A stretch of DNA of 64,000 bases from Kaustia mangrovi. GTDB taxonomy: Bacteria > Pseudomonadota > Alphaproteobacteria > Rhizobiales > Im1. Location of the stretch: assembly GCF_015482775.1 (NCBI RefSeq), contig NZ_CP058214.1, positions 1,878,272-1,942,271 of the forward strand, read 5' to 3'. Under the pieces are notes generated by a model. That model did no database searches. It was given only the letters and a program-made list of their open reading frames with translations, and was not told the origin of the DNA. The position numbers and the translations under genes were made by a program. Of this stretch, positions 27,075-40,749 are shown in pieces (the first letter of the stretch is position 1; each line of letters opens with the position of its first letter).

Positions 27075-27971
27075 CTAGGCAAGCTTGGCGATTCGGCCGG
27101 CGATGAGGCGAAGGAGGCGGTCCGGATCGAGCCCGGTGACGACGCGGTGGCTGGTGCCGTTCTCCTCGAAGCGGCAGGTCCCCTCGCGCGCCGGATCGCG
27201 CCATTCGACATGGACCTGCCCCTCCCGTCCGGAAAAGATCTCAGGATCGAGAAGGGCGGCCACGGTGCAGGCGTCATGCACGAAACGCCCGCCGGCGGCG
27301 GTGACGTCGAGCATGGCAGCAGCGGCCTCCGCCACGGGCGTGTCCGTCTGCCGGAGCGCTTCGGCGAGCTCTGCGGCGATATTCGCCTGGCGCGTCACAT
27401 CGAGCCCGAACAGCGAGATCGGCGCGCCGCTCTCGAGCACGATATGGGCGGCCGCCGGATCGGTGCCGAAATTGAATTCCGCCGGCGCGCCCTCCGTCGG
27501 AAACACCTCGCCGCCCATGATGTGGAGAGCACGAAGCCGGCCGGCGAGGCGGGGTTCCCGCGTCATGGCCAGCGCCACGTTACTCAGGGGGCCGATGGCG
27601 CAGAGCGTGACGGTCCCGGGCTCGGCCGACATCACGGTATCGGCGATGAAATCCGCGCCATGGACCGGCGACGGCGTCGTCCCGGGAGCCGGCAGGCCCG
27701 TGTCGCCCATGCCGTCGCGCCCGTGATAGTCGCTTTCGGGCCGCGCCGCGGCCATGAGCGGGCGGGCGAGCCCGGCATGGACCGGGATCTCTGCGCGCCC
27801 GGCAAGCTCCAGGAGGCGCAACGCATTCGCCGTCGTCTTCTCAAGCGGCTTGTTGCCGGCGACCGTCGAGATACCGGCAAGCGCGATCTCCTCGGGCGCA
27901 GCGAGCGCGAGCAGGATCGCGATGGCATCGTCGATGCCGGGATCGCAGTCGATGACGAGGGGCGCGGTCAC
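27075..27971 (-). CDS. inosine/uridine-preferring nucleoside hydrolase family protein
   Basis: The protein has 298 residues. The start is taken as GTG 27971, overlapping the previous stop (GTGA); a GTG at 27983 is the alternative. The calcium and ribose site IDCDPGIDDAIAI sits at the N terminus (about residues 6-18), and the family landmarks ALGP-type LCAIGPLSNVALA, IMGGEV and FGTDPAAAHIVL follow, with LFGLDVTR late. It cleaves N-glycosidic bonds of ribonucleosides to base plus ribose. The next gene is a ribokinase-like kinase. The base specificity is not evident from motifs. Confidence 0.88.
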   Translation of the reverse strand: MTAPLVIDCDPGIDDAIAILLALAAPEEIALAGISTVAGNKPLEKTTANALRLLELAGRAEIPVHAGLARPLMAAARPESDYHGRDGMGDTGLPAPGTTPSPVHGADFIADTVMSAEPGTVTLCAIGPLSNVALAMTREPRLAGRLRALHIMGGEVFPTEGAPAEFNFGTDPAAAHIVLESGAPISLFGLDVTRQANIAAELAEALRQTDTPVAEAAAAMLDVTAAGGRFVHDACTVAALLDPEIFSGREGQVHVEWRDPAREGTCRFEENGTSHRVVTGLDPDRLLRLIAGRIAKLA

Positions 27972-29788
27972 AGCGTGCCCCACAGATCGGGCCCGCGCTC
28001 TTCGGCGACCATCAGATAGGGCAGCAGAGCTCCCCAGCTATAGAAGGGGTCGGTGTCGGCCTGGTCGAGGATCGCACCGGTCTCGGCATTGTAGTTCTCG
28101 CCGCACAGCCGCTCGCGCCAGCCGGCCGCGAACAGGCGCCAGCCCATCTCGGCCAGCGCATGCGCCTCCGCATCCCGCCCGCAGCGCTTGAGCCCCTGAT
28201 AGGTCCAGAAGTTGAGCGGCCCCCAGATGCGCCCGCGCCAATAGACGTTGTCCGTATAGGCCGGATCGTCGCGCGTGACCGAGGGAAGGCCCGGCACGCC
28301 GCCGAATTTCCCGCGCGGGGTCAGATAGCCCGAGACGAGCGCCTCGACCTGCTCCGCGCTCGCCGCGCCGGCGGCCATGGGGAAGAACGAGGTCGGCGCG
28401 AGCGGTTCGACAAACCCGCCATCGACGAGGCGATTGGCGAACACCTTGCGGCTCCCGTCCCAGAGCCTGTCGGAGATCGTCTCCCGGTGGCGGGCGGAGC
28501 GCCCGGCAAGTCGCGCCGCATCGTCCCCGCGGCCGAGCTCGGCGGCCATCCGCGCCAGCATTTCGCCATCGAGCGCGAGCAGGCTGTTGAGCCCGACATC
28601 GAAGGACATCAAAAGCCCGGTCTCCTCGTCGAAGGGGGCGGGATCGTGGACCGGCATGTTGTCCATGGAGGACTCGTCCTTGGCGGCGAGCTTGGTGCCC
28701 TTGTAGAGCCCGTCGCCCACATCGAGGCTCGTGCCGTAGACGACGAGGCCCGCGCCGTCGGGCTCGCGCCGGCGCCACCACCAGTCGTGATTGCGCAGGA
28801 GGCCCGGAAAGGCCCAGTCGAGAAGTCCACGGTCGCGGGAGGCGAGATAGAGCGACCAGACGACGAAGGAGGCGATTGGCGGCTGGGAACGGTCCAGCCA
28901 GGCGTCGTTGCCGGTCACCAGGCACGGGAAGTTGCCCTCCTCCGTCTGCCAGGCGAAGACGGCCTCCAGGTTCTGGCGCGCCTTGCCCTCGTCGAACGGC
29001 CCCCACAGGAGGGCGTTGTAGAGGATATCGTCCAGCCAGACGCCGAAACCGCCGAATTTGTGCGTGTTCCAGAAGCGTGTGAGAACGGTGTAGGGCCGGT
29101 CGTTGATGGCGTCGTGGACATGGTTCCACGAGATCACGTCGTGAACCGCCTGGAGGGGCGAGGCCTCCTCCGGCAGGGGGGCAATCTCATCCTCCGGCAT
29201 GGATGGCCGCTCCGGCACCGTCCCGTCGATGCGCAGGTCGAGGCGCATGGACGGGCCCTCCTCCAGATTGAAGCGCAGCGCCGCGAAGGTGCCCTCCACC
29301 CCGCGCGAGGCGAGATAGAAATAGCCCTTCTCGCGGAACTCCGCCTCAAGCGCCTCCAGGCCGTCATGGAACGTCGCCATGAGCGGCTTCTTCGCCGCCC
29401 GGATGGCGAGCCCCGGCCCGCCGGTCAGGACACCGGTCTCCGGATCGTAGGCGAGGCGGGTGCCCGCCGGGCCCGAGACGCAGAGCACCACCCAGAAACG
29501 CAGGCCCCACTCGCCGGTCTCGCGCGCCTGCCAGTCGACGGTCACCCCGCCATCGTCCCCGAAGCGGTAGCGCCAGTCGATGACCGTGTCCTCGTGGCGC
29601 GTACGGAAGGTGATCTCGCGCCCGTCCATCGTGCGCACGCCGAACCGGATATCGAGGCTCGGCGGGAGATGCGTCACGGCGTTGGCGCGCGCGGAATAGA
29701 GAACCGGCGTCAGTGTCAGGCCCGTGTCGGGATGGGTCAGTTCCACCGGCTTGTCCGGCGACCACGTCCCCCAGCTCGTCGTCGTCAT
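27968..29788 (-). CDS. GH63/MGH1-like (alpha/alpha)6-barrel glycoside hydrolase
   Basis: The protein has 606 residues. ATG 29788 is chosen because it overlaps the previous stop (ATGA); ATG 29800 is the alternative. An N-terminal beta-rich region (1-200) precedes a helical barrel with GGFGVWLDDIL (246-256), KDESSMDNMP (370-379; Asp376 fits the general acid), WGPLNFWTYQG (522-532) and GENYNAETG (563-571; Glu564 fits the base), then FYSWGALLPYL. These match clan GH-G/GH63-like enzymes such as mannosylglycerate hydrolase and YgjK. There is no signal peptide, so the glycoside must be imported first. The substrate is unknown. It sits between an isochorismatase-like and a nucleoside hydrolase gene. 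Confidence 0.8.
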   Translation of the reverse strand: MTTTSWGTWSPDKPVELTHPDTGLTLTPVLYSARANAVTHLPPSLDIRFGVRTMDGREITFRTRHEDTVIDWRYRFGDDGGVTVDWQARETGEWGLRFWVVLCVSGPAGTRLAYDPETGVLTGGPGLAIRAAKKPLMATFHDGLEALEAEFREKGYFYLASRGVEGTFAALRFNLEEGPSMRLDLRIDGTVPERPSMPEDEIAPLPEEASPLQAVHDVISWNHVHDAINDRPYTVLTRFWNTHKFGGFGVWLDDILYNALLWGPFDEGKARQNLEAVFAWQTEEGNFPCLVTGNDAWLDRSQPPIASFVVWSLYLASRDRGLLDWAFPGLLRNHDWWWRRREPDGAGLVVYGTSLDVGDGLYKGTKLAAKDESSMDNMPVHDPAPFDEETGLLMSFDVGLNSLLALDGEMLARMAAELGRGDDAARLAGRSARHRETISDRLWDGSRKVFANRLVDGGFVEPLAPTSFFPMAAGAASAEQVEALVSGYLTPRGKFGGVPGLPSVTRDDPAYTDNVYWRGRIWGPLNFWTYQGLKRCGRDAEAHALAEMGWRLFAAGWRERLCGENYNAETGAILDQADTDPFYSWGALLPYLMVAEERGPDLWGTL

Positions 29789-30393
29789 GGGGTCGTCCAT
29801 TCAGCGAGGATATCGTCGAGAGATGCCAGCTCGACCTGTTGGTCGAAGCGCGGATAGACCGCATCGAGACAGGCCCGGTGCCCGGCCATGTCCGAGCTTG
29901 CGACCGCTTCGCGCGGAACGATCACGCGATAGCCGAGATCGACGGCGGACAGCACGGAGGCGAGCACGCAGACATCCGTCTCCACGCCGCAGAAGACGAG
30001 TGCGGAGGGCTGGAGCCCGGCGACGGCGGCAGCGAAACCGTCGCTGTCGAAGGCGTCATGGGTCCATTTGTCGAAGATGCGGCCCGGCCCTGCATAAGGC
30101 GCGAGATCCTCGTGGAGATCGAGGACGTCGGCGCCGGCAGCCTCCTGCGTCACGCCTGTCCAGTGGCGGTAGTAGCGCTGCCACGTTCCGGTCGCCGCCT
30201 CCGGCGTCCTGGCCGTGATGAAGCGCGTGAACCAGCTCCGATCCGGCCGCGCGGCGACGAGAGACCGGATGGCGGGCACGATTTCAAGTCCCGTCGGGCA
30301 GAACCAGTCGCCGGGCTCCAGGAAGATGCGCTGCATGTCGACGCAGACGACGAGCGCGCTGTCGCCGAGCGGACCGAAGGGCAGGCGGCTCAT
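29785..30393 (-). CDS. isochorismatase-family cysteine hydrolase
   Basis: The protein has 202 residues from ATG 30393, overlapping the ATPase stop (ATGA). The catalytic triad is in place: Asp19 in VVCVDMQRIF, Lys109 in IFDKWTHDAF, and Cys142 in FCGVETDVCVLAS with its preceding cis-peptide. The family includes nicotinamidase, N-carbamoylsarcosine amidase, ureidoacrylate hydrolase and isochorismatase; residues here do not choose among them. In this operon an amide-cleaving role on the aglycone or base is reasonable. The open frame to 30636 overlaps the ATPase and is not coding. Confidence 0.88.
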   Translation of the reverse strand: MSRLPFGPLGDSALVVCVDMQRIFLEPGDWFCPTGLEIVPAIRSLVAARPDRSWFTRFITARTPEAATGTWQRYYRHWTGVTQEAAGADVLDLHEDLAPYAGPGRIFDKWTHDAFDSDGFAAAVAGLQPSALVFCGVETDVCVLASVLSAVDLGYRVIVPREAVASSDMAGHRACLDAVYPRFDQQVELASLDDILAEWTTP

Positions 30394-31448
30394 GGCGTCA
30401 CCACCACCGTGTCGGCAGGCCGCCAGACGAGCCGCACCCGCGCACCGGCCTCGAAGGGCTCCGCCCCCCGGTTCTGGGCGATGACTTTCACCGTCTGGTC
30501 CTGCCAGGAGGCGAGATAGGTCATGCTGTTGCCGGCGAAGATCGCCTCCGAGACGGTCGCGTCGAGCATGTTGCCCTCGCCGTCCGCCGGCCCGTCGGCG
30601 GGCACGACCTCGATACGCTCGGGGCGCACCGCGCACACGACCTCCTCGTCCGCCTTGCCGGGCGCGTCCGCGGTGCGCATCCGCGATCCGTCGGCCAGCA
30701 CCACGCCGTCGCCATTCGCCCGGCCCCTGAACAGATTGGCGTCGCCGAGAAAGGTCGCCGCGAAGGCGCTCTCCGGCCGGTCGTAGATTTCCTTCGGCGC
30801 CCCCTCCTGGACGAGCCGGCCATCGCGCAGAACGCCGATGCGGTCGCTCAGGGTGAGCGCCTCCTCCTGGTCGTGGGTGACGAAGATGGTAGTGATGCCG
30901 ATCTCGCGCTGGATGCGCTTGAGCTCCACCTGCATGCCGACACGCAGCGCCTTGTCGAGGGCCGACAGCGGTTCGTCGAGCAGCAGCACGCGCGGATGGA
31001 ATACAATGGCGCGCGCGAGCGCCACGCGCTGGCGCTGGCCGCCGGAGAGCTGGTGCGGCTTGCGGTCGTCGAGGCCGGTGAGGCGGACGAGTTCCAGCGC
31101 CTCGCCGACACGCCGTACGATCTCCGCGCGCGCCGTGTTGCGGACCATGAGCCCGAAGGCGACATTGTCGAACACGGACATGTTGGGGAACAGCGCGTAG
31201 CTCTGGAACATCATGCCGATATCGCGCTTCTCCGCCGGCAGGGCGCCGACCGGCTCACCGCCGATCTCGATCTCGCCGCTGTCCGGGAAGTCGAAACCGG
31301 CGATCAGCCGAAGAAGCGTCGTCTTGCCCGAGCCGGAGGGCCCGAGCAGCCCGTAGAAGCCGCCATCGGCGAATTCGATGGAGATGTCGTCCAGCGCCTT
31401 GAAGCTGCCGAACAGCTTGGAGACGCCACGCACGGATACGGAGGCCAT
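30390..31448 (-). CDS. ABC transporter ATP-binding protein, PotA-like
   Basis: The protein has 352 residues. Walker A is GPSGSGKTT, the Q-loop is FQSYALFPNM, the signature is LSGGQRQRVALARAI, Walker B is LLLDEPLSALD, and the H-loop is FVTHDQEEAL, with a C-terminal TOBE domain (CAVRPERIEV). It energises importer operon 3. Its ATG overlaps the permease stop by one base (TGATG), and its own stop overlaps the isochorismatase start. Confidence 0.92.
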   Translation of the reverse strand: MASVSVRGVSKLFGSFKALDDISIEFADGGFYGLLGPSGSGKTTLLRLIAGFDFPDSGEIEIGGEPVGALPAEKRDIGMMFQSYALFPNMSVFDNVAFGLMVRNTARAEIVRRVGEALELVRLTGLDDRKPHQLSGGQRQRVALARAIVFHPRVLLLDEPLSALDKALRVGMQVELKRIQREIGITTIFVTHDQEEALTLSDRIGVLRDGRLVQEGAPKEIYDRPESAFAATFLGDANLFRGRANGDGVVLADGSRMRTADAPGKADEEVVCAVRPERIEVVPADGPADGEGNMLDATVSEAIFAGNSMTYLASWQDQTVKVIAQNRGAEPFEAGARVRLVWRPADTVVVTP

Positions 31449-32236
31449 CAGCGCTCTCCCCCGAAACGGTAATACCGGGCCACGCCGACCAGAAGTGTCA
31501 TGGAGAAGACGATGACGATGGTCGAGATGGCGTTGATCTCGGGCGTGAAGCCCTTGCGGATGGCCGTGTAGATCTCAACCGGCAGGGTGGAGACGCCCGG
31601 CACGGCCAGGAAATAGGAGATGACGAACTGGTCGAAGGAGACCGCGAAGGCAAAGAGCGCGGCGGCGATGAAGCCCGGCGCGATGAACGGGAAGGTGACA
31701 TGGCGCACGACCTGTGCCGGAGAGGCGCCGAGCGAGCGCGCCGCCGCCTCCAGATCCGGGTCGAAGGCCTTGAGCCGTGCGGAGACGACGATAATCACAT
31801 AGGGCAGCGCCAGCGCCACATGGCCGAGCACCATGGCATGGAGCCCGCGCCCGATGCCCGCCCAGAAGAAGAACAGCAGCATGGCCGTTCCCGTGATCAG
31901 CCACGGGATCGCGATGGGCGGGAACAGCAGGAGCTGGAGCACCTGCTTGCCGCGGAACTCGTAGCGGAAGAAGGCGATGGCCGCCGCGGTGCCGAGCGTG
32001 CTCGCGATCGCGGTGGTGACGACCGCGACGACGATGCTGTTGAACCCGGCGTTCAGCAGCTTCGAATTGCCGGACAGCGCCTCGTACCAGCGCAGCGACC
32101 AGTCGATGGGTAGCGTGTAGAACTGCGAGGCGTTGAACGACATCACCGCCATCACGAGGATGGGGATGTAGAGGAACATGAGGACCAGAGCGAGATAGAC
32201 CCGCCCCAATGTCGCCAGGCCGATCCGCCGCCTCAT
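31448..32236 (-). CDS. ABC transporter permease, PotC-like
   Basis: The protein has 262 residues from ATG 32236, overlapping the PotB stop. The helix-rich sequence has coupling loop AARSLGASPAQVVRHVTFPFIAPGF, and the N terminus FLYIPILVMAVMSFNAS is the PotC type. The open frame extends to 32503 through PotB sequence and is rejected. Confidence 0.9.
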   Translation of the reverse strand: MRRRIGLATLGRVYLALVLMFLYIPILVMAVMSFNASQFYTLPIDWSLRWYEALSGNSKLLNAGFNSIVVAVVTTAIASTLGTAAAIAFFRYEFRGKQVLQLLLFPPIAIPWLITGTAMLLFFFWAGIGRGLHAMVLGHVALALPYVIIVVSARLKAFDPDLEAAARSLGASPAQVVRHVTFPFIAPGFIAAALFAFAVSFDQFVISYFLAVPGVSTLPVEIYTAIRKGFTPEINAISTIVIVFSMTLLVGVARYYRFGGER

Positions 32237-33126
32237 CGCGCAGCCCTCCTGAGGATCGGATGGAACGCGGCGAAGATGATCAGCACACAGCCCAGCAGGA
32301 TGAAGGAGAGCGCCGCGCCGAGCGGCCAGTTGAAGACGGCGGTGAACTGGTCCTCGATCACGGTGCCGATGAAGGTGCCGTTGCGTCCGCCGAGGATGCG
32401 CGGCTCCATGAAGGAGCCGATGACCGGCACGAAGATCAGCACCGCGCCCGCGACGATCCCCGGCATGGACAGCGGCAGGAGGATGCGCGTGAGGATCGTC
32501 CACCGGCTCGCCCCCAGCGACCGCGCCGCCTCGATCAGGTCGTCGTCTATGGCCTGCAACGAGATGTAGCAGGTGAGGATCATGTAGGGCAGGTAGGAAT
32601 GGACGAGCCCGATCACGATGGCCGGATAGGTGAACATGAGATCGAGCCCGCCGAAGCCCGGGATCACCGCATTCAGGAACTGCTCAAGGATGCCGTTGCC
32701 GCGCAGCACCATGGTCCAGGAGAAGATGCGCACCAGCGCGTTGCTCCAGAACGGGATGATGACGAGCAGGAACATGGCCTCGCGCCAGCGCCCCTTGACG
32801 ACCTTCGCCAGCACCAGCGCGCAGGGAAAGCCGAACAGGAAGCAGTAGAACGAGACTTCCGCGCCGAGCCGCAGCGAGCGCAGCATGAGGCTCTGGTAGA
32901 AGGCTTTGTCGAAGAAGGCCTGATAGTTCTCTAGCGTGAACTGCCCGACCCGGCCGGCAATGGGCGCCTCGCTCAGGAGGCTGAAATAGAGCATGGCCGA
33001 GATCGGCAGGAACACCGTGACGGCGAGCCACAGATAGGCCGGCCCGGTCAGGACCGCGATCCGCCGCGCCTCGCCGCGCCGGGCCTTCGCGCTGCTGCCA
33101 GCCTCTGTACTCGCCGCTACCGTCAT
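32233..33126 (-). CDS. ABC transporter permease, PotB-like
   Basis: The protein has 297 residues with a short charged N-terminal tail, then about six helices (AYLWLAVTVFLPISAMLYFSL) and the coupling loop AARSLGASRWTILTRILLPLSMPGI. It is the channel partner of the gene at 31448. It follows the binding-protein gene after a 104-bp gap carrying a perfect hairpin. Confidence 0.9.
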   Translation of the reverse strand: MTVAASTEAGSSAKARRGEARRIAVLTGPAYLWLAVTVFLPISAMLYFSLLSEAPIAGRVGQFTLENYQAFFDKAFYQSLMLRSLRLGAEVSFYCFLFGFPCALVLAKVVKGRWREAMFLLVIIPFWSNALVRIFSWTMVLRGNGILEQFLNAVIPGFGGLDLMFTYPAIVIGLVHSYLPYMILTCYISLQAIDDDLIEAARSLGASRWTILTRILLPLSMPGIVAGAVLIFVPVIGSFMEPRILGGRNGTFIGTVIEDQFTAVFNWPLGAALSFILLGCVLIIFAAFHPILRRAAR

Positions 33127-33185
33127 GCCGCGCTCAGCGCCTCTGCTTCGGGGAGTGCCCCGTCACGGTTCGACTCCGCGTTTCC

Positions 33186-33216
33186 CGTCATGGCCGGGCC
33201 TGACCCGGCCATGACG
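33186..33216 (-). repeat. perfect palindromic hairpin (REP-like) between binding-protein and permease genes (operon 3)
   Basis: CGTCATGGCCGGG and CCCGGCCATGACG pair perfectly over 13 bp around a five-base loop (33199-33203). The GTCATGGCCGGG...CCCGGCCATGAC form is a repeat type seen widely in GC-rich bacteria. It lies in the gap after the binding-protein stop. There is no T-tract. Confidence 0.75.
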
Positions 33217-33230
33217 ACGAGGACATGCCC

Positions 33231-34295
33231 TCAGTTCTGGTAGTAGGTCTTCGTCTCCTGCCAGAGCTCGAGCATCTTCTGGCGGACCGTGTCGTCTATG
33301 GGCCCCATGAACTGGAGCTTGCCCGACTCTGCCGCCTTGCCCATGACCTGCCGGTTGAAGGCGTCCTCGGCAAGCTCGCCGATGGCCTTGGTGTTAGCGG
33401 ACGCCGGCGCACCCACATCGGTGTCCCACTTCACGTAGAACTCCGGATCGATCATCCAGTCGATGAACTGCTTCGCCGCCTCCTTGTGCGGCGCGTCCTT
33501 CGCGATGGACAGCCCGTCGAGCCAGCCGATGGCACCCTCCTTCGGGATGACGAACTCGACGGGCAGGCCGAAATTGTTCTTCGAACGCGAAGCCGAGCCG
33601 CTCCAGTAGGTGGACAGCTCGAACTCGCCCGAGGACATGTACTGGTTCCACTCGTTCTCCGAGGTCCAGAAGGTGCGGATCTGCGGCTTCAACGCCCGGA
33701 GCTTCTCGCGGATCGCATCGAAGTCGGAGGGGTCGTTGATCTTCTGCCCGGTGGCGATGGCCGCGATCTGCACCGCCTCCACCGCGTCGTCGCGCCAGCC
33801 GACCTTGCCCTCGTGCTTCGGCGACCACAGCTCCTCGATGGAGGTCGGCGCGGTCTCGAAATCGTTGGTGTTGATGGCATAGGACGTCACGCCCCAGACC
33901 CAGGCGACGCCATAGGTCTTCCCGTCGATCACCAGATAGGGGCTGTTGCGCAGATCCGGCGCCAGATCCTCCACATTCTCCATGGTGGAGGTGTCGATCG
34001 GCTCGATCAGGCCCTCCTCCGCCGCCTGCGGCGTGTAGGCGCTGTTGATGAGCACGACATCATAGGTGCCCGGATTGGTCCGGAGCTTGGTCAGCATCTC
34101 CTGCTCGGAGTTGAAATAGTCGTGCACGACCTCGTGGCCGGTCTTCTTCTCGAAGGCCTCGACCGACCAATCCTCGTCAGTGCCGTAGCCCTGCCAGTTG
34201 AGCACGCGGATCGTGTCGGCTGAGGCCGCGCTCCCCCAGCCCATGGCCATTGCGAGCCCCATGGCTGCGGCCGTCGAAAGCAGTGTCCGTGTCAT
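33231..34295 (-). CDS. periplasmic solute-binding protein, PotD/PotF-like, of ABC operon 3
   Basis: The protein has 354 residues from ATG 34295 with GAGGGAGGGG upstream; the open frame to 34412 lacks a ribosome-binding site. A signal peptide covers about residues 1-26 (LSTAAAMGLAMAMGWGSAASA). The mature part begins DTIRVLNWQGYGTDE and has SPYLVIDGKTYGVAWVWGV and YWSGSASRSKNN, typical of spermidine/putrescine-type binding proteins. It is the first gene of an eight-gene operon opposite LacI, so its ligand is probably the substrate of the glycosidase and nucleoside hydrolase downstream rather than a plain polyamine. Confidence 0.88.
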   Translation of the reverse strand: MTRTLLSTAAAMGLAMAMGWGSAASADTIRVLNWQGYGTDEDWSVEAFEKKTGHEVVHDYFNSEQEMLTKLRTNPGTYDVVLINSAYTPQAAEEGLIEPIDTSTMENVEDLAPDLRNSPYLVIDGKTYGVAWVWGVTSYAINTNDFETAPTSIEELWSPKHEGKVGWRDDAVEAVQIAAIATGQKINDPSDFDAIREKLRALKPQIRTFWTSENEWNQYMSSGEFELSTYWSGSASRSKNNFGLPVEFVIPKEGAIGWLDGLSIAKDAPHKEAAKQFIDWMIDPEFYVKWDTDVGAPASANTKAIGELAEDAFNRQVMGKAAESGKLQFMGPIDDTVRQKMLELWQETKTYYQN

Positions 34296-34419
34296 CCTAA
34301 CCCCTCCCTCAGTGGCGTCACCGAATGTATCCCCCGATGTCTTGGCCGATTTTCCGACCGCGCTCAAGCATCGGATGCGTGAACTGCCCCCTGCCGACCC
34401 GGCGGCAGACATTCCGCCC

Positions 34420-34435: not shown

Positions 34436-34470
34436 AATCATCATTGCGGCCGCCGCATCGGTCAAGTAGA

Positions 34471-34488
34471 TTGTTTCTACAGAAACAA
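34471..34488. promoter_or_regulatory. second inverted repeat next to the lacI start
   Basis: TTGTTTCTACAGAAACAA has two perfect 8-base arms around AC and directly abuts an in-frame ATG at 34489. It differs in sequence from the 34420 operator. It may bind another regulator, or act as a hairpin at the 5' end of the lacI mRNA. Confidence 0.55.
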
Positions 34489-34527
34489 ATGAGCCGGCCA
34501 TTTCCGCCCGGCCGGACCGGTCCGCCC

Positions 34528-35493
34528 ATGGCAACCATCACCGAAATCGCACGTCTCGCACGGGTGTCGACCGCCACGGTCTCCCATGTGCTCAACAGGA
34601 CCAAGCCGGTCAGCGCGAAAACGCGCCGGATCGTTGAGGAGATCGCGCGCGAGCTCGGCTATTCGCCGAGCCGGTCGGCGCGCTCGCTCAAGACCGGCCG
34701 GAGCGCCACCATCGGGCTGATCGCGCCCGACCTCACCAATCCGTTCTTCCCGGCCATCGCGCAGGCCGTGGAGGCGAAGGCGCGCGAGCTCGGCCACGGG
34801 CTCATCATCGTCGACTGCCACAACGACCCGGACGAGGAGCAGGCCGCCTTCGCACTCGTCGGGGAATACCGCGTCGACGGGGCGATCTGGATTCCGGTGC
34901 GCGAGGATCTGGAGCGGATCCGTCTGCCCGCCCCCGTCGTCACGCTCGACCGGCCCATCGAGGGCATAGACGGCGTGACCGCAGCCCATCGCGAGGGCGG
35001 GCGCATGGTCGGCCGGGAAATCGCTGCGCGCGGGCATGGAAGCGTCGGCATATTGCGCGGTCCCGCCGCCCATTACAGCGCGCGCGAACGCTATGAGGGC
35101 CTGAGAGAGGGCCTTGGCGATGCGGTCCCGATCGGCTGGACCGTCGAGGTCCCCTTCTCGCTCGATCTGGGCGAAGAGGCCGAGGCGGCCATTCTGGACC
35201 GGCCGGTCTCGTGCATCGCCTGCGCCAACGACCAGGTCGCCATCCGCACGCTCCAGCTGCTCGCCCGGGCGGGCCGCGCCGTGCCGGACGAGGTGTCGGT
35301 GATCGGCTTCGACGATATTGCCTGGTCGCACTTCATCCACCCGCCGCTCACCACGGTGCGCCAGCCCTACAGGGCGCTCGGCACGGCGGCGGTCGAGCTG
35401 CTCTTCAGGCGCATCGCGGAGCCGGACGCCCCGCGCGAGCTGAAGGCGCTCCCCGTCACCTGGATCGAGCGGGAAAGTCTGCGCGCCATTTGA
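34528..35493 (+). CDS. LacI-family transcriptional regulator
   Basis: The protein has 321 residues. ATG 34528 is chosen because LacI proteins start a few residues before the helix-turn-helix (ITEIARLARVSTATVSHVLN, residues 4-23); ATG 34489 would add 13 proline-rich residues. The hinge RSARSLKTGRSATIGLIAPD leads to a sugar-binding-type effector domain (NPFFPAIAQAV, GIDGVTAAHREGGRM, CANDQVAIRTLQ, IGFDDIAWS). It probably represses the divergent eight-gene operon in the absence of a sugar-containing inducer. No good ribosome-binding site is visible before either start. Confidence 0.88.
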   Translation: MATITEIARLARVSTATVSHVLNRTKPVSAKTRRIVEEIARELGYSPSRSARSLKTGRSATIGLIAPDLTNPFFPAIAQAVEAKARELGHGLIIVDCHNDPDEEQAAFALVGEYRVDGAIWIPVREDLERIRLPAPVVTLDRPIEGIDGVTAAHREGGRMVGREIAARGHGSVGILRGPAAHYSARERYEGLREGLGDAVPIGWTVEVPFSLDLGEEAEAAILDRPVSCIACANDQVAIRTLQLLARAGRAVPDEVSVIGFDDIAWSHFIHPPLTTVRQPYRALGTAAVELLFRRIAEPDAPRELKALPVTWIERESLRAI

Positions 35494-36367: not shown

Positions 36368-37216
36368 TCATCCCTTCGGCGCGGCGTTGCAGATACCCTT
36401 CACCGAGCGCATCACCGCCTCGGGTGCGAAGACGCGGTCGAGCCAGCCATCCCGGAAGATCTCCGCCTTCGCGTTCTCGATGGCCAGCAGCGCCCCGTCG
36501 GAGAACTGCCCCGGAAAGGCCTCGAACAGGATGGCGAGCTCGACATTGAGATGGCCGAGCATGAAATCCATCGCCGCCTGGTGCGGCACGCCGCGCCGGG
36601 CCGCCTCGTCGGTCGCCTCGCGCAGCGCGGTGACGAGCGTCGCCGCCACGGTCTCCGACAGGGCCGGCTCGAGAATCGCCATCTGCTCCACGCTCACGCG
36701 GTGGGAGCGCATGACCGGCTTGTAGATCGCCCGCGCGATCGCCTCGCATGGCGCATAGTGCTCCTCCGGTCCCTGCATGAGCGCGCAGACGATATGCTGT
36801 CTCGCATGCTCGCCGCCGAAATAGTCGGTCTTGGCCTCCATCCTCGTCTCCTCGTTGAAGATTGGCGGATGGCAGGGATGGGTGACGAAATAGGTGATAT
36901 CGGCGCGCTCCGGCAGCTCGCCCGCATGGGGCGCGGCGGCATCGAGCATGATGACCGCGCAGCCGCCCGGTATCTTGTCGACGAACCCCCGGGCGATCTT
37001 GCCAATGGCCGCATCCGGCACCGCCATCAGCACGACATCGGCCCGGGCCAGTGCCTCGTCCGGATCCGCGCAGGTCACGCCGAGCGCGTCGGCGAGGCGC
37101 TCGCGGCCGGCCTGCGATATCTCCACATGGTCCACCTCATAGGGCTCGTCCGCGAGATTGCGGGCAAGCCTCAGCCCCATCTTTCCGCCCGCGCCGAGCA
37201 ATGCGATCCTGGTCAT
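36368..37216 (-). CDS. apnO: D-apionate oxidoisomerase-like NAD-binding dehydrogenase (ApnO-like)
   Basis: The protein has 282 residues with ribosome-binding site GGGAGGAGAT. The Rossmann motif IALLGAGGKMGLRLARNL is at residues 4-21; a phosphogluconate-dehydrogenase-like C-terminal domain follows (THPCHPPIFNEE, EQMAILEPALSETVAATL). The assignment relies on context: it is co-directional with a four-carbon acid-sugar kinase and a RuBisCO-like protein, the trio described for D-apionate breakdown. There ApnO oxidises and isomerises D-apionate to 3-oxo-isoapionate. It is last in the trio, 31 bp after the kinase. If the context misleads, it is simply a sugar-acid dehydrogenase. Confidence 0.7.
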   Translation of the reverse strand: MTRIALLGAGGKMGLRLARNLADEPYEVDHVEISQAGRERLADALGVTCADPDEALARADVVLMAVPDAAIGKIARGFVDKIPGGCAVIMLDAAAPHAGELPERADITYFVTHPCHPPIFNEETRMEAKTDYFGGEHARQHIVCALMQGPEEHYAPCEAIARAIYKPVMRSHRVSVEQMAILEPALSETVAATLVTALREATDEAARRGVPHQAAMDFMLGHLNVELAILFEAFPGQFSDGALLAIENAKAEIFRDGWLDRVFAPEAVMRSVKGICNAAPKG

Positions 37217-37247
37217 GCGAGATCTCCTCCCTTGTCCCTCGTGTATC

Positions 37248-38624
37248 TCAAGTTCCACCTCCGGCACGGACGCGCCCGAAATAGTCCGGCCCGCCGATCT
37301 GGCCACCCTTGAAGGCGATCTGGAGGCCCTCCAGCCGGCGCTCCTTAGCATGCGCGAGACACAGGGGCGCGCCCGGCGCAACGGGCACCATCGCCTCCAG
37401 CGCATAGAGGCCGAGCGCCCCGCCGGCCCGGCCCGCCGTGTCGCCGCCGCTGACCACGACGCGCCCGAGCCCCGCCTGCCGGACGACGCGGGAGAGAATG
37501 TCGCCGAGCGCCCGCCCGATCCGGTCCTGCCCCTCCGCCGGGTCGATGCCGAGCGCACGGACCTTGTCCGCGAACCGGACGATCCGGGGGTCGTCGGGTC
37601 CGCGTGCGGTGTGGACGAGCGGGCTTCGGCCGTCTTCCAGCGCCGCCAATGCGCACGAGACGGTATCGGCGATCTCCTCCTGCCGCGTCGCCGGGTCGGC
37701 AAGGCGCGTCGCGTCGGGCGCGATGTCGGCAAAACCGTTCTTGAAGCTCCAGCCGATCTGGTCCGCGGTCACCGGCGAGCAGCTCCCCGAGACGGCCGCG
37801 ATCCGGTCCACCGGCCCGAGCCCGGCGCGCGCGGTGGCCTGCGGCAGGAGCCCGGCCCGGCGCCAATGGGCGATCAGCGCATATTGAAGGCCGGAGGAGG
37901 AGGCGGAAAAGAGGCCGTCGCCCCGCCCCTGCCAGACGAGCGCGCCCGCCGCGGCGAGCGTCTCCTCGTCCATGACATCGACCAGAACGGCCCGCGCGCC
38001 GTCCGCGAGCACGGTTTCGAGGCGGTCCGCACCACGGCCCTCCTTCAGGGCGACGAAATCGACGAGCCCGATGGGGAGGTCGGTCTGGTCGGCGAGATGG
38101 CGGCTGAGATCGGCCTCGCCCATGGGCGTCACCGGATGGCGCGCCATGGTCGGGTGGCGGTCGAGCCGGTAGCCCTCGCCATCGACGGTGGCGAACAGGT
38201 TGCCGAACGCCTGATAGCGCCCGAGCCGGGGCGCGGCGACGATCATGGGCGACCAGCGGCAGGGCCGCGCCCGGAGCCCCAGCTCCAGCGCCTTGCCGAT
38301 GGAGCCGACCGTTGGCGAGGAATCGAAGGTGGAGCACACCTTGTAGTGCAGGATCGGCGCGCCGAGGCCGGCGAGCGTGGCAAATATCTCCGGCAGATGG
38401 CGCTCCATCCAGCCGGGCGTGCGGCTGCGCGCGGTGCCGGCGATGCCGATGGCCCGGTAGCCGGCAAAGGCCGACAGCCGCTCCGGCGTTGGCGGTTCCA
38501 GGAACAGGACGGCCGGCAGCCCGTTGAACGCGAAGACCTCCATCGCATCGGTGGAGCCGGTGAAGTCATCGCCATGGAAGGCGAGAAGACAGCCTTGGGC
38601 CAGCGTCTCGCGCGCCACCGTCAT
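37248..38624 (-). CDS. oiaK: four-carbon acid-sugar kinase family protein (3-oxo-isoapionate kinase-like)
   Basis: The protein has 458 residues. The two-domain fold of the former DUF1537 family is shown by LAFHGDDFTGSTDAMEVF (about 13-30), HYKVCSTFDSSPTVGSIG and, in the C-terminal nucleotide-binding domain, SGSCSPVTADQI, VVSGGDTAGRAG and GGQIGGPDYF. Family members phosphorylate threonate, erythronate or 3-oxo-isoapionate. The partner RuBisCO-like gene overlaps its start (ATGA at 38621-38624), which favours the 3-oxo-isoapionate role (4-phosphate formation). Confidence 0.78.
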   Translation of the reverse strand: MTVARETLAQGCLLAFHGDDFTGSTDAMEVFAFNGLPAVLFLEPPTPERLSAFAGYRAIGIAGTARSRTPGWMERHLPEIFATLAGLGAPILHYKVCSTFDSSPTVGSIGKALELGLRARPCRWSPMIVAAPRLGRYQAFGNLFATVDGEGYRLDRHPTMARHPVTPMGEADLSRHLADQTDLPIGLVDFVALKEGRGADRLETVLADGARAVLVDVMDEETLAAAGALVWQGRGDGLFSASSSGLQYALIAHWRRAGLLPQATARAGLGPVDRIAAVSGSCSPVTADQIGWSFKNGFADIAPDATRLADPATRQEEIADTVSCALAALEDGRSPLVHTARGPDDPRIVRFADKVRALGIDPAEGQDRIGRALGDILSRVVRQAGLGRVVVSGGDTAGRAGGALGLYALEAMVPVAPGAPLCLAHAKERRLEGLQIAFKGGQIGGPDYFGRVRAGGGT

Positions 38625-39874
38625 CGATAGGCCTCCAGCGCGGTGCGCAGCGCCTCGTGCGAGCGCGCATAGGTCTCCGCCGGAATGCCCTTAACGGCGG
38701 CCTCCCACGCCTCGCGCAGGCTGGCCACGCCAGCGGCCGGCCCGGCCGGGTGCGCCATGATCCCGCCACCTGCAGCATAGATCAGGTCGACGGAGCCGAG
38801 CGCCTCGTAGGTCGCCGCCGCCTGCCGCGCCGACTGGCCGGAGGAGAAGACCGGCATCGCCGTCATGGGACGGTCGTCGAACAGCGGCTCCAGACAGGCA
38901 CGGGCGGAGGCGACGACGCTGTCATTCGCCTCGCAGAACTTGTTGTCGAGCCCGTTGACATGCATGTGGTCGGCGCCGGCGAGCCGCCAGAGCGTCTGCC
39001 AGGCCCTGTAGGACCAGCCGAGCATGGGATGGCGGCTGAGATAGCCCCAGCCATTGCGGTGGGCATGGATCGGCAGGGCGCAATGGCGCCTGAGCGCCAT
39101 GAGGCCTGCGAGCCCGACGCTGTTGAGACTGACCATGACGCAGGTGCCGCCATGCTCCGCGACCACGTCGTGGCGCCGGCGCATCTCGTCGACCTCGCCC
39201 GTCAGGTTGAAGGCGACCATCGGCTTGCGCCCCGTGCGGTCGGCATGGCGCGCGACGACCTCCATGACCGCCTTCACGCGCGCCTCGAAGGGGCAATGGG
39301 CACCGTCGCTCTGCAGCTCGTCGTCCTTGACGAAATCGATGCCCGCCGCGCACAGCCCGTCGACGAGACCGGCGGTTTCCGCCGGGCCGAGCCCGATGCT
39401 CGGCTTTATGATCGTGCCGATGAGCGGACGGCCCTCCACGCCCGCGAGCCGGCGCGTTCCCTCAACCCCGAAGGCCGGGCCGGGACAGGCCTGCGCGAAC
39501 GCCCGGGGCAGCGCGATGTCGAGGAGGCGCAGACCGCTCACCTCCCTCAGCTCGAACAGGTTTCCCGCAACCGTCGCCATGAGGTTGGGCAGCGACGGGC
39601 CGATATTGTCCAGCGGCCAGGAAATCTCCACGCGCGCCCTGCTATAGCGTGCACCGTCCGGCGGGCGGGCAGCGCCCGGCAAGCTCGGCTCGGCGACCGT
39701 GTCCAGACGCTCCACCCGCTCCACGACGGCGCCCGCACGCCGGCGAAGCTCCGGCGTCTCGCCGGGAACCGCCACGAAGGTTCCGCTCGACTGCTCGCCG
39801 GCCATGACGCCTGCGACCGCATCCGGATCGAGCCCGGTCTCCAGCAGATAGGTGGCGCGAATGCGCTCGCCCAT
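38621..39874 (-). CDS. RuBisCO-like protein, form IV (3-oxo-isoapionate-4-phosphate decarboxylase or transcarboxylase/hydrolase)
   Basis: The protein has 417 residues. The RuBisCO large-chain fold is marked by GTIIKPSIGL (153-162; Lys157 matches the catalytic KPK lysine, and the second lysine is Ser), FVKDDE (181-186, carbamylated-lysine/metal motif intact), HRNGWGYLSRHPMLGWSY and MPVFSSGQSA in place of loop 6. The missing loop-6 lysine rules out CO2 fixation. In apionate clusters such proteins act on 3-oxo-isoapionate 4-phosphate either by decarboxylation (OiaX) or by transcarboxylation/hydrolysis to 3-phosphoglycerate and glycolate (OiaT). Sequence alone does not separate the two here. It is the first gene of the trio. 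Confidence 0.82.
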   Translation of the reverse strand: MGERIRATYLLETGLDPDAVAGVMAGEQSSGTFVAVPGETPELRRRAGAVVERVERLDTVAEPSLPGAARPPDGARYSRARVEISWPLDNIGPSLPNLMATVAGNLFELREVSGLRLLDIALPRAFAQACPGPAFGVEGTRRLAGVEGRPLIGTIIKPSIGLGPAETAGLVDGLCAAGIDFVKDDELQSDGAHCPFEARVKAVMEVVARHADRTGRKPMVAFNLTGEVDEMRRRHDVVAEHGGTCVMVSLNSVGLAGLMALRRHCALPIHAHRNGWGYLSRHPMLGWSYRAWQTLWRLAGADHMHVNGLDNKFCEANDSVVASARACLEPLFDDRPMTAMPVFSSGQSARQAAATYEALGSVDLIYAAGGGIMAHPAGPAAGVASLREAWEAAVKGIPAETYARSHEALRTALEAYR

Positions 39875-39907: not shown

Positions 39908-39942
39908 CCGCCAACTGATATACTCATCATACCAGTTGGCGG
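39908..39942. promoter_or_regulatory. large operator-like dyad upstream of the RuBisCO-like/kinase/ApnO operon
   Basis: CCGCCAACTG (39908-39917) and CAGTTGGCGG (39933-39942) are perfect 10-base arms separated by 15 bp. The spacer ATATACTCATCATAC is itself nearly symmetric (TAT...ATA). It lies 34-68 bp before the first gene of the operon, the place of a repressor or promoter site. No regulator gene is adjacent, so the binding protein is unknown. Confidence 0.6.
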
Positions 39943-40254: not shown

Positions 40255-40749
40255 CTACCGCTCCTTCTCGAAGAGCGAGGGCAGCGGGTAGTGGCTCTTC
40301 ACGAAGGGCGACTTGATGACGACGTAGCTGAAATATTTCTCGATGCCGATATTCGTCTCCAGGAGCCGCTCCACGATCTCCTGATATTCGGCGATGCCGC
40401 GCGTCACGAATTTCAGCAGATAGTCGTAGCTACCGCTGACCAGATGGCACTCGACGATCTCGTCCAGCCGCCGCACCGCCGCCTCGAACCGGCTGAAATC
40501 GCCAGGCCGGTGGTCCGACAGGGTCACCTCGGTGAAGACCGTCAGCGTCTCGCCGAGCTTGGCCATATCGATCTGCGCGCTGTAGCCGGTGATGAAGCCC
40601 GCCTCCTGCAGCCGCTTCACTCGCAGCAGGCAGGGGCTCGGCGACAGGCCGACCGCCTCGGCCAGCTCCACATTGGTGATGCGGCCGTTCTTCTGCAGTT
40701 CGTAGAGGATCCTGATGTCGATACGGTCGAGCTTCGGGGCTCTCGTCAT
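40255..40749 (-). CDS. Lrp/AsnC-family transcriptional regulator
   Basis: The protein has 164 residues. The AsnC-type helix-turn-helix is at about residues 7-60 (LDRIDIRILYELQKNGRITN, SPSPCLLRVKRLQEAGFI); the C-terminal RAM domain follows (VFTEVTL, VECHLVSGSYDYLLKFV). These proteins sense amino acids. It lies 87 bp downstream of a class-III aminotransferase on the same strand, which it probably controls. Confidence 0.92.
   Translation of the reverse strand: MTRAPKLDRIDIRILYELQKNGRITNVELAEAVGLSPSPCLLRVKRLQEAGFITGYSAQIDMAKLGETLTVFTEVTLSDHRPGDFSRFEAAVRRLDEIVECHLVSGSYDYLLKFVTRGIAEYQEIVERLLETNIGIEKYFSYVVIKSPFVKSHYPLPSLFEKER

Follow-up and report, generated by a model that had tools for sequence, protein, structure and literature searches.

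The three consecutive minus-strand genes at positions 36368-39874 of the Kaustia mangrovi DNA analyzed here (the window, a stretch of 64,000 nucleotides) most likely enable the degradation of a branched sugar acid of plant origin to ordinary metabolites. More specifically, the operon probably encodes a three-step catabolism of D-apionate, or of a very close branched acid, that is taken up free, with a RuBisCO-like protein (RLP) of the OiaT type. The gene set is already known from other bacteria, and the operon is a further case of the known ApnO/OiaK/OiaT pathway; in this organism, a RuBisCO-like protein, with no other member of the RuBisCO superfamily found in the genome, is retained in a trio for acid catabolism that lacks the sugar-oxidizing part. 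If this reading is correct, the free acid, be it apionate or a sister branched acid, would itself count as a nutrient.

The three genes and their relatives

The RLP gene (38621..39874, minus strand; 417 aa) gives the sole RuBisCO large-subunit family match of the genome, which was searched as a single contig of 4.63 Mb, 98.3% complete. It is followed by the gene of an OiaK-like 3-oxo-isoapionate kinase (37248..38624, minus strand; 458 aa), a DUF1537 protein consisting of SBD_N and NBD_C domains (PF07005 and PF17042), and by that of an ApnO-like D-apionate oxidoisomerase (36368..37216, minus strand; 282 aa), which combines an NAD-binding domain with PGDH_C (PF16896) and has its own GGAGG. A previous reading of this DNA from the sequence only described the genes as overlapping, which is true of the RLP/kinase junction, where the kinase ATG lies over the RLP stop codon in a 4 bp overlap (ATGA), but not of the kinase and ApnO, because the kinase stop at 37248 is separated from the ApnO ATG at 37216 by a 31 bp gap with the GGAGG inside. 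All three frames are open, and their GC3 of 0.87-0.88 is like that of the neighbouring genes.

By far the best NCBIfam family for the kinase is OiaK (NF042436); since the score of 615 bits is under the curated cut-off of 700, the protein is denoted here OiaK-like. Among the kinases of apiose operons, that of Paraburkholderia scores 825, and those of Ancylobacter (577) and R. ruizarguesonis (478) also fall short of this cut-off. In its context, as a two-domain DUF1537 protein adjoining ApnO and an RLP, the window kinase matches OiaK. The ApnO-like protein is orthologous to the protein of loci with ApnL and ApdG, being 70-71% identical to ApnO of the Microvirga and Ancylobacter loci, which also hold ApnL, and 49-70% identical to 15 other ApnO proteins; its identities to the ApnO of apiose loci span 50-71%. 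In Microvirga, Paraburkholderia, Rhodobacteraceae and others, the whole trio belongs to complete apiose operons, which also encode ApdG, ApnL and, as a rule, a ribose-type ABC importer; the identities there are 58-69% for the RLP, 43-56% for the kinase and 54-70% for ApnO. The original assignment of these genes to a D-apionate-type trio of ApnO, OiaK and RLP is thus borne out by three intact genes with orthologues in complete apiose operons.

Upstream steps and the entry of the substrate

As pointed out in the sequence-only reading, the operon includes neither an apionolactonase nor an apiose dehydrogenase nor a sugar importer; none of these was found elsewhere in the genome either, so that the suggestion that the upstream steps might be encoded at another locus has to be abandoned for any form recognizable by known families in single-sequence and profile searches. 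Specifically, neither the ApnL lactonase nor the ApdG apiose dehydrogenase was detected in the genome with single sequences or with profiles of 14 and 15 rows, respectively, both of which were positive in control genomes; a complete D-apiose pathway, with ApnL and ApdG in the genome, is accordingly not seen. A genome-wide search for a ribose-type binding protein yielded only a trivial match, in the LacI-type gene 34444-35493.

At the window operon, there is no trio-linked transporter. Among the 30 TRAP binding proteins encoded in the genome, there is no evident orthologue of the trio-linked ones (the best are about 37-42% identical). The spermidine/putrescine-like ABC operon at 30390-34412 was considered as an apionate importer and rejected, given that two plus-strand genes lie between and a divergent LacI-type regulator is located alongside; beside the mapped trios, no binding protein of this kind was found, except for one weak 25% match (L020). 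This ABC operon is part of an unusual mix at 27968-34412 of the window, together with the divergent LacI regulator, an isochorismatase-like hydrolase and an MGH1-like glycoside hydrolase.

The genomic context of the trio was tallied over non-OiaX loci with at least 57% identity, with markers counted within about 10 kb. In many of these loci, ApnO is accompanied by ApnL, ApdG or both; in 26, the window included, no marker other than ApnO is present, which indicates that the trio without clustered upstream genes is common. ApnL is also absent from six other genomes (L034, L047, L062, L066, L070 and L074), several of which are metagenome-assembled, so that the absence is weaker there, and also from a seventh, of 1.6 Mb, where it is of little weight. 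In one of the six (L074), TRAP genes and a NanR-type regulator precede the trio, and in the haloarchaeon Halalkalicoccus, a GntP permease is found beside it. The existence of several unrelated lactonase-less trio genomes, in some of which a TRAP or GntP transporter is encoded next to the trio, suggests entry of the free acid, which would be the simplest reading; an unsequenced plasmid or non-homologous upstream enzymes are possible alternatives. It can be proposed tentatively, at somewhat less than an even chance, that RLP, OiaK and ApnO form a stand-alone route for D-apionate, or a sister acid, taken from the environment, with no apiose or apionolactone step, and that this route recurs in unrelated bacteria and haloarchaea that have no lactonase, in some cases together with a TRAP or GntP acid transporter.

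In three loci, the ApnO gene of the trio is followed by a gene for a 2-hydroxyacid (glyoxylate/hydroxypyruvate-type) dehydrogenase (L047 14819-15769, L049 13474-14412 and L062 9085-10023), the copies of L047 and L049 being 65-69% identical to that of L062; such an enzyme would fit a glycolate/glyoxylate product. Near two lactonase-less trios, a DRL_cat (PF21135) oxidoreductase is encoded (L062 2796-4136 and L066 14893-16290).

The absence from the genome of every known upstream apiose gene would also fit a trio that degrades some other branched or linear sugar acid by the same chemistry of oxidation and rearrangement, phosphorylation and RLP cleavage, all the more so as RLP-kinase pairs accompanied by VOC and TRAP proteins or by SDR dehydrogenases, without ApnO, indicate that the pair has been reused. 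It is, however, precisely ApnO that those seemingly substrate-switched clusters do not have and that the window retains, at 70-71% identity to the ApnO of ApnL-holding loci, as given above, so that a different acid seems unlikely. The same missing genes could be accounted for by a full D-apiose pathway in which the dehydrogenase, the lactonase and the importer are encoded at unlinked sites and share no homology with ApdG, ApnL and RbsABC. Such replacement is conceivable in view of Cupriavidus pinatubonensis, where an SDR and an alpha/beta hydrolase are located beside RLP, kinase, TRAP transporter and ApnO; no such genes adjoin the window operon, though, and the genome has no ribose-type binding protein, which makes this possibility a doubtful one.

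The clusters without ApnO deserve a separate description. In eleven loci, RLP and DUF1537 kinase reside in a cassette with a TRAP transporter and a VOC protein. RLPs of two clades occur in this cassette, with identities to the window RLP of about 54% for one and about 69% for the other, which suggests an unassigned pathway, with the VOC protein, perhaps, acting in an upstream step. Another seven RLP-kinase pairs without ApnO adjoin SDR dehydrogenases or, in Rufibacter, pectin-degrading enzymes and a protein of the Asp/Glu racemase family.

The active site of the RuBisCO-like protein

Lys157 and the KDDE metal motif (K183-D184-D185-E186) are present, as had been noticed before, and are invariant in 12 relatives; H303 and H305 are kept as well. 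The loop-6 lysine, by contrast, is not missing, contrary to that earlier reading. The segment H305-V-N-G-L-D-N-K312 aligns without gaps, both with MAFFT and in a profile-profile alignment, with H-A-G-T-V-V-G-K334 of form I RuBisCO, such that K312 is located seven residues past H305, as K334 is past H327. This lysine is invariant among the relatives in the RLP family alignment, and the OiaX proteins carry its equivalent, too; a distant RLP (L104) has an arginine at this position, and in two other, probably form II, sequences of the superfamily (L115 and L117), which have a longer loop, the loop-6 alignment is off by about one residue. With K157, K183, D185, E186 and K312, the protein has the RuBisCO-like metal and loop-6 residues, and the correction bears directly on whether it can handle CO2.

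Of the RuBisCO lysines, the one truly absent is the second in the KPK motif (K177), where the RLP has S159. A bona fide RuBisCO, which needs both K175 and K177, was rejected on these grounds, and the RuBisCO models score far below their cut-offs. The window RLP has a RuBisCO-like DHxH where OiaX has DQxQ.

OiaT or OiaX

The sequence-only reading left the activity of the RLP open. The occurrence of the same ApnO and OiaK partners in OiaX operons, and the fact that OiaX (NF042437) is the top-scoring NCBIfam model for the protein, could be taken to mean that it is an OiaX-type decarboxylase, yielding L-erythrulose-1-phosphate and CO2. The score, however, is 466 bits against a curated cut-off of 700, compared to 780 bits for the annotated OiaX of R. 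ruizarguesonis, and the identity to annotated OiaX proteins is 44-46%, versus about 58-69% to the RLPs of complete apiose operons (plasmids) and as much as 72% in Ancylobacter. A careful tree was built of 88 RLPs, in which the four OiaX sequences included form a clade of their own (100/100), with the window RLP outside, in a clade of 62 rows (100/99) whose RLPs come mostly from ApnO-linked loci. There, it branches off alone next to a Burkholderiales-type group (89/93), the sister relation being not firmly supported. Forcing the window RLP and OiaX together costs 59 log units and is rejected (p-AU 0.007).

The OiaX product needs a LerI/DerI outlet. The genome contains one triose-phosphate-isomerase (TPI) locus, and no RpiB-family protein was found in it; hence, no LerI/DerI-type outlet for this product is encoded. 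In an OiaX operon inspected for contrast, no isomerase genes were found within the stretch read either, so that the absence at the genome level is the sole argument that isomerases provide. The sole TPI gene is seemingly split by a frameshift (L120 1280-2043, about C1:272144-272907), perhaps an assembly error. Taken together, the score, the separate clade, the AU test, the DHxH motif and the missing isomerases render the OiaX activity quite improbable.

With OiaX rejected by score, tree and AU test, with the placement in the ApnO-linked clade, and with no LerI/DerI outlet, an OiaT activity is favoured: judging from clade exclusion, context and residues, the window RLP most likely converts 3-oxo-isoapionate-4-phosphate to 3-phosphoglycerate and glycolate. 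OiaX activity is reported for Agrobacterium radiobacter K84 and OiaT activity for Xanthobacter autotrophicus (review, PMC6302742). In the family of Ancylobacter, of which 149 genomes were sampled, every ApnO-linked RLP that was found belongs to the clade of the window RLP; this family also has second-clade RLPs in TRAP-VOC clusters without ApnO. Xanthobacter presumably belongs to the same family, and if the assayed Xanthobacter OiaT were an RLP of the TRAP-VOC clade, the argument for OiaT would weaken. The choice is narrowed down in favour of OiaT. Both the RLP, placed among ApnO-linked RLPs in the tree, and the kinase do fall inside the apionate clades, in agreement with the initial proposal.

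The region upstream of the RLP gene

A 35-bp inverted repeat, CCGCCAACTGGTAT-N7-ATATCAGTTGGCGG, is located at 39908..39942, 33 bp 5' of the RLP start codon. It has 13 of 14 pairs around a 7-nt centre, and none of 300 resamples of the region yielded a repeat of this quality; it could serve as an operator or form a hairpin in the 5'-UTR. With up to 3 mismatches allowed, no further copies were found in the genome; a genome-wide regulon was rejected because of this single copy. The half-site ACTGGTAT of the palindrome resembles GntR/FCD-type sites, and ATGGTATACCAT is found upstream of the RLP gene in L062. Further upstream, on the same strand as the operon, an Lrp/AsnC-family regulator is encoded (40255..40749, minus strand). 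Searches for a consensus sigma-70 promoter and a terminator found none.

The operon is not seen in near relatives, as three genomes of the same family contain only distant RuBisCO-superfamily matches, and its upstream genes are missing, yet it is very unlikely to be the decaying rest of an apiose operon gained by horizontal transfer, considering the three intact frames with the GC3 of their neighbours, the preserved catalytic motifs and the unique palindrome.

The proposed pathway and known systems

The pathway can be envisaged as follows. ApnO would oxidize the acid and, with migration of the hydroxymethyl group, produce 3-oxo-isoapionate, which OiaK would phosphorylate at C4. The RLP, acting as an OiaT-type transcarboxylase/hydrolase, would decarboxylate the metal-bound substrate (carbamate on K183, with D185 and E186) to an enediolate; the CO2 could then be recaptured on the neighbouring carbon, held by K312 of loop 6, and hydration followed by C-C cleavage, as in the second half-reaction of RuBisCO, would release 3-phosphoglycerate and glycolate. 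Here we infer the substrate, the OiaT activity, the detailed OiaT mechanism and the uptake of the acid.

With the RLP of PDB 3nwr and the TRAP-VOC-RLP-kinase clusters, the window shares a non-OiaX RLP and a DUF1537 kinase (the latter seen in the clusters); it differs in an RLP that is about 50-55% identical and belongs to a separate clade (100/100), and in having ApnO, which the clusters do not. With the OiaX branch (3-oxo-isoapionate-4-phosphate decarboxylase, NF042437), it has in common the ApnO and OiaK partners, a related RLP and the equivalent of K312; the differences are the sub-cut-off score, the other clade, DHxH instead of DQxQ and no LerI/DerI-type isomerases in the genome. The closest system is the D-apiose/D-apionate pathway through ApnO, OiaK and the RLP OiaT, reportedly described by Carter et al. 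in 2018. Unlike in that pathway, neither the operon nor, as far as can be detected, the genome as a whole encodes ApdG, ApnL or a ribose-type ABC importer, and there is no adjacent NanR-type regulator; the three enzymes, the gene order of the Microvirga and Ancylobacter operons and the RuBisCO-like active site are the same.
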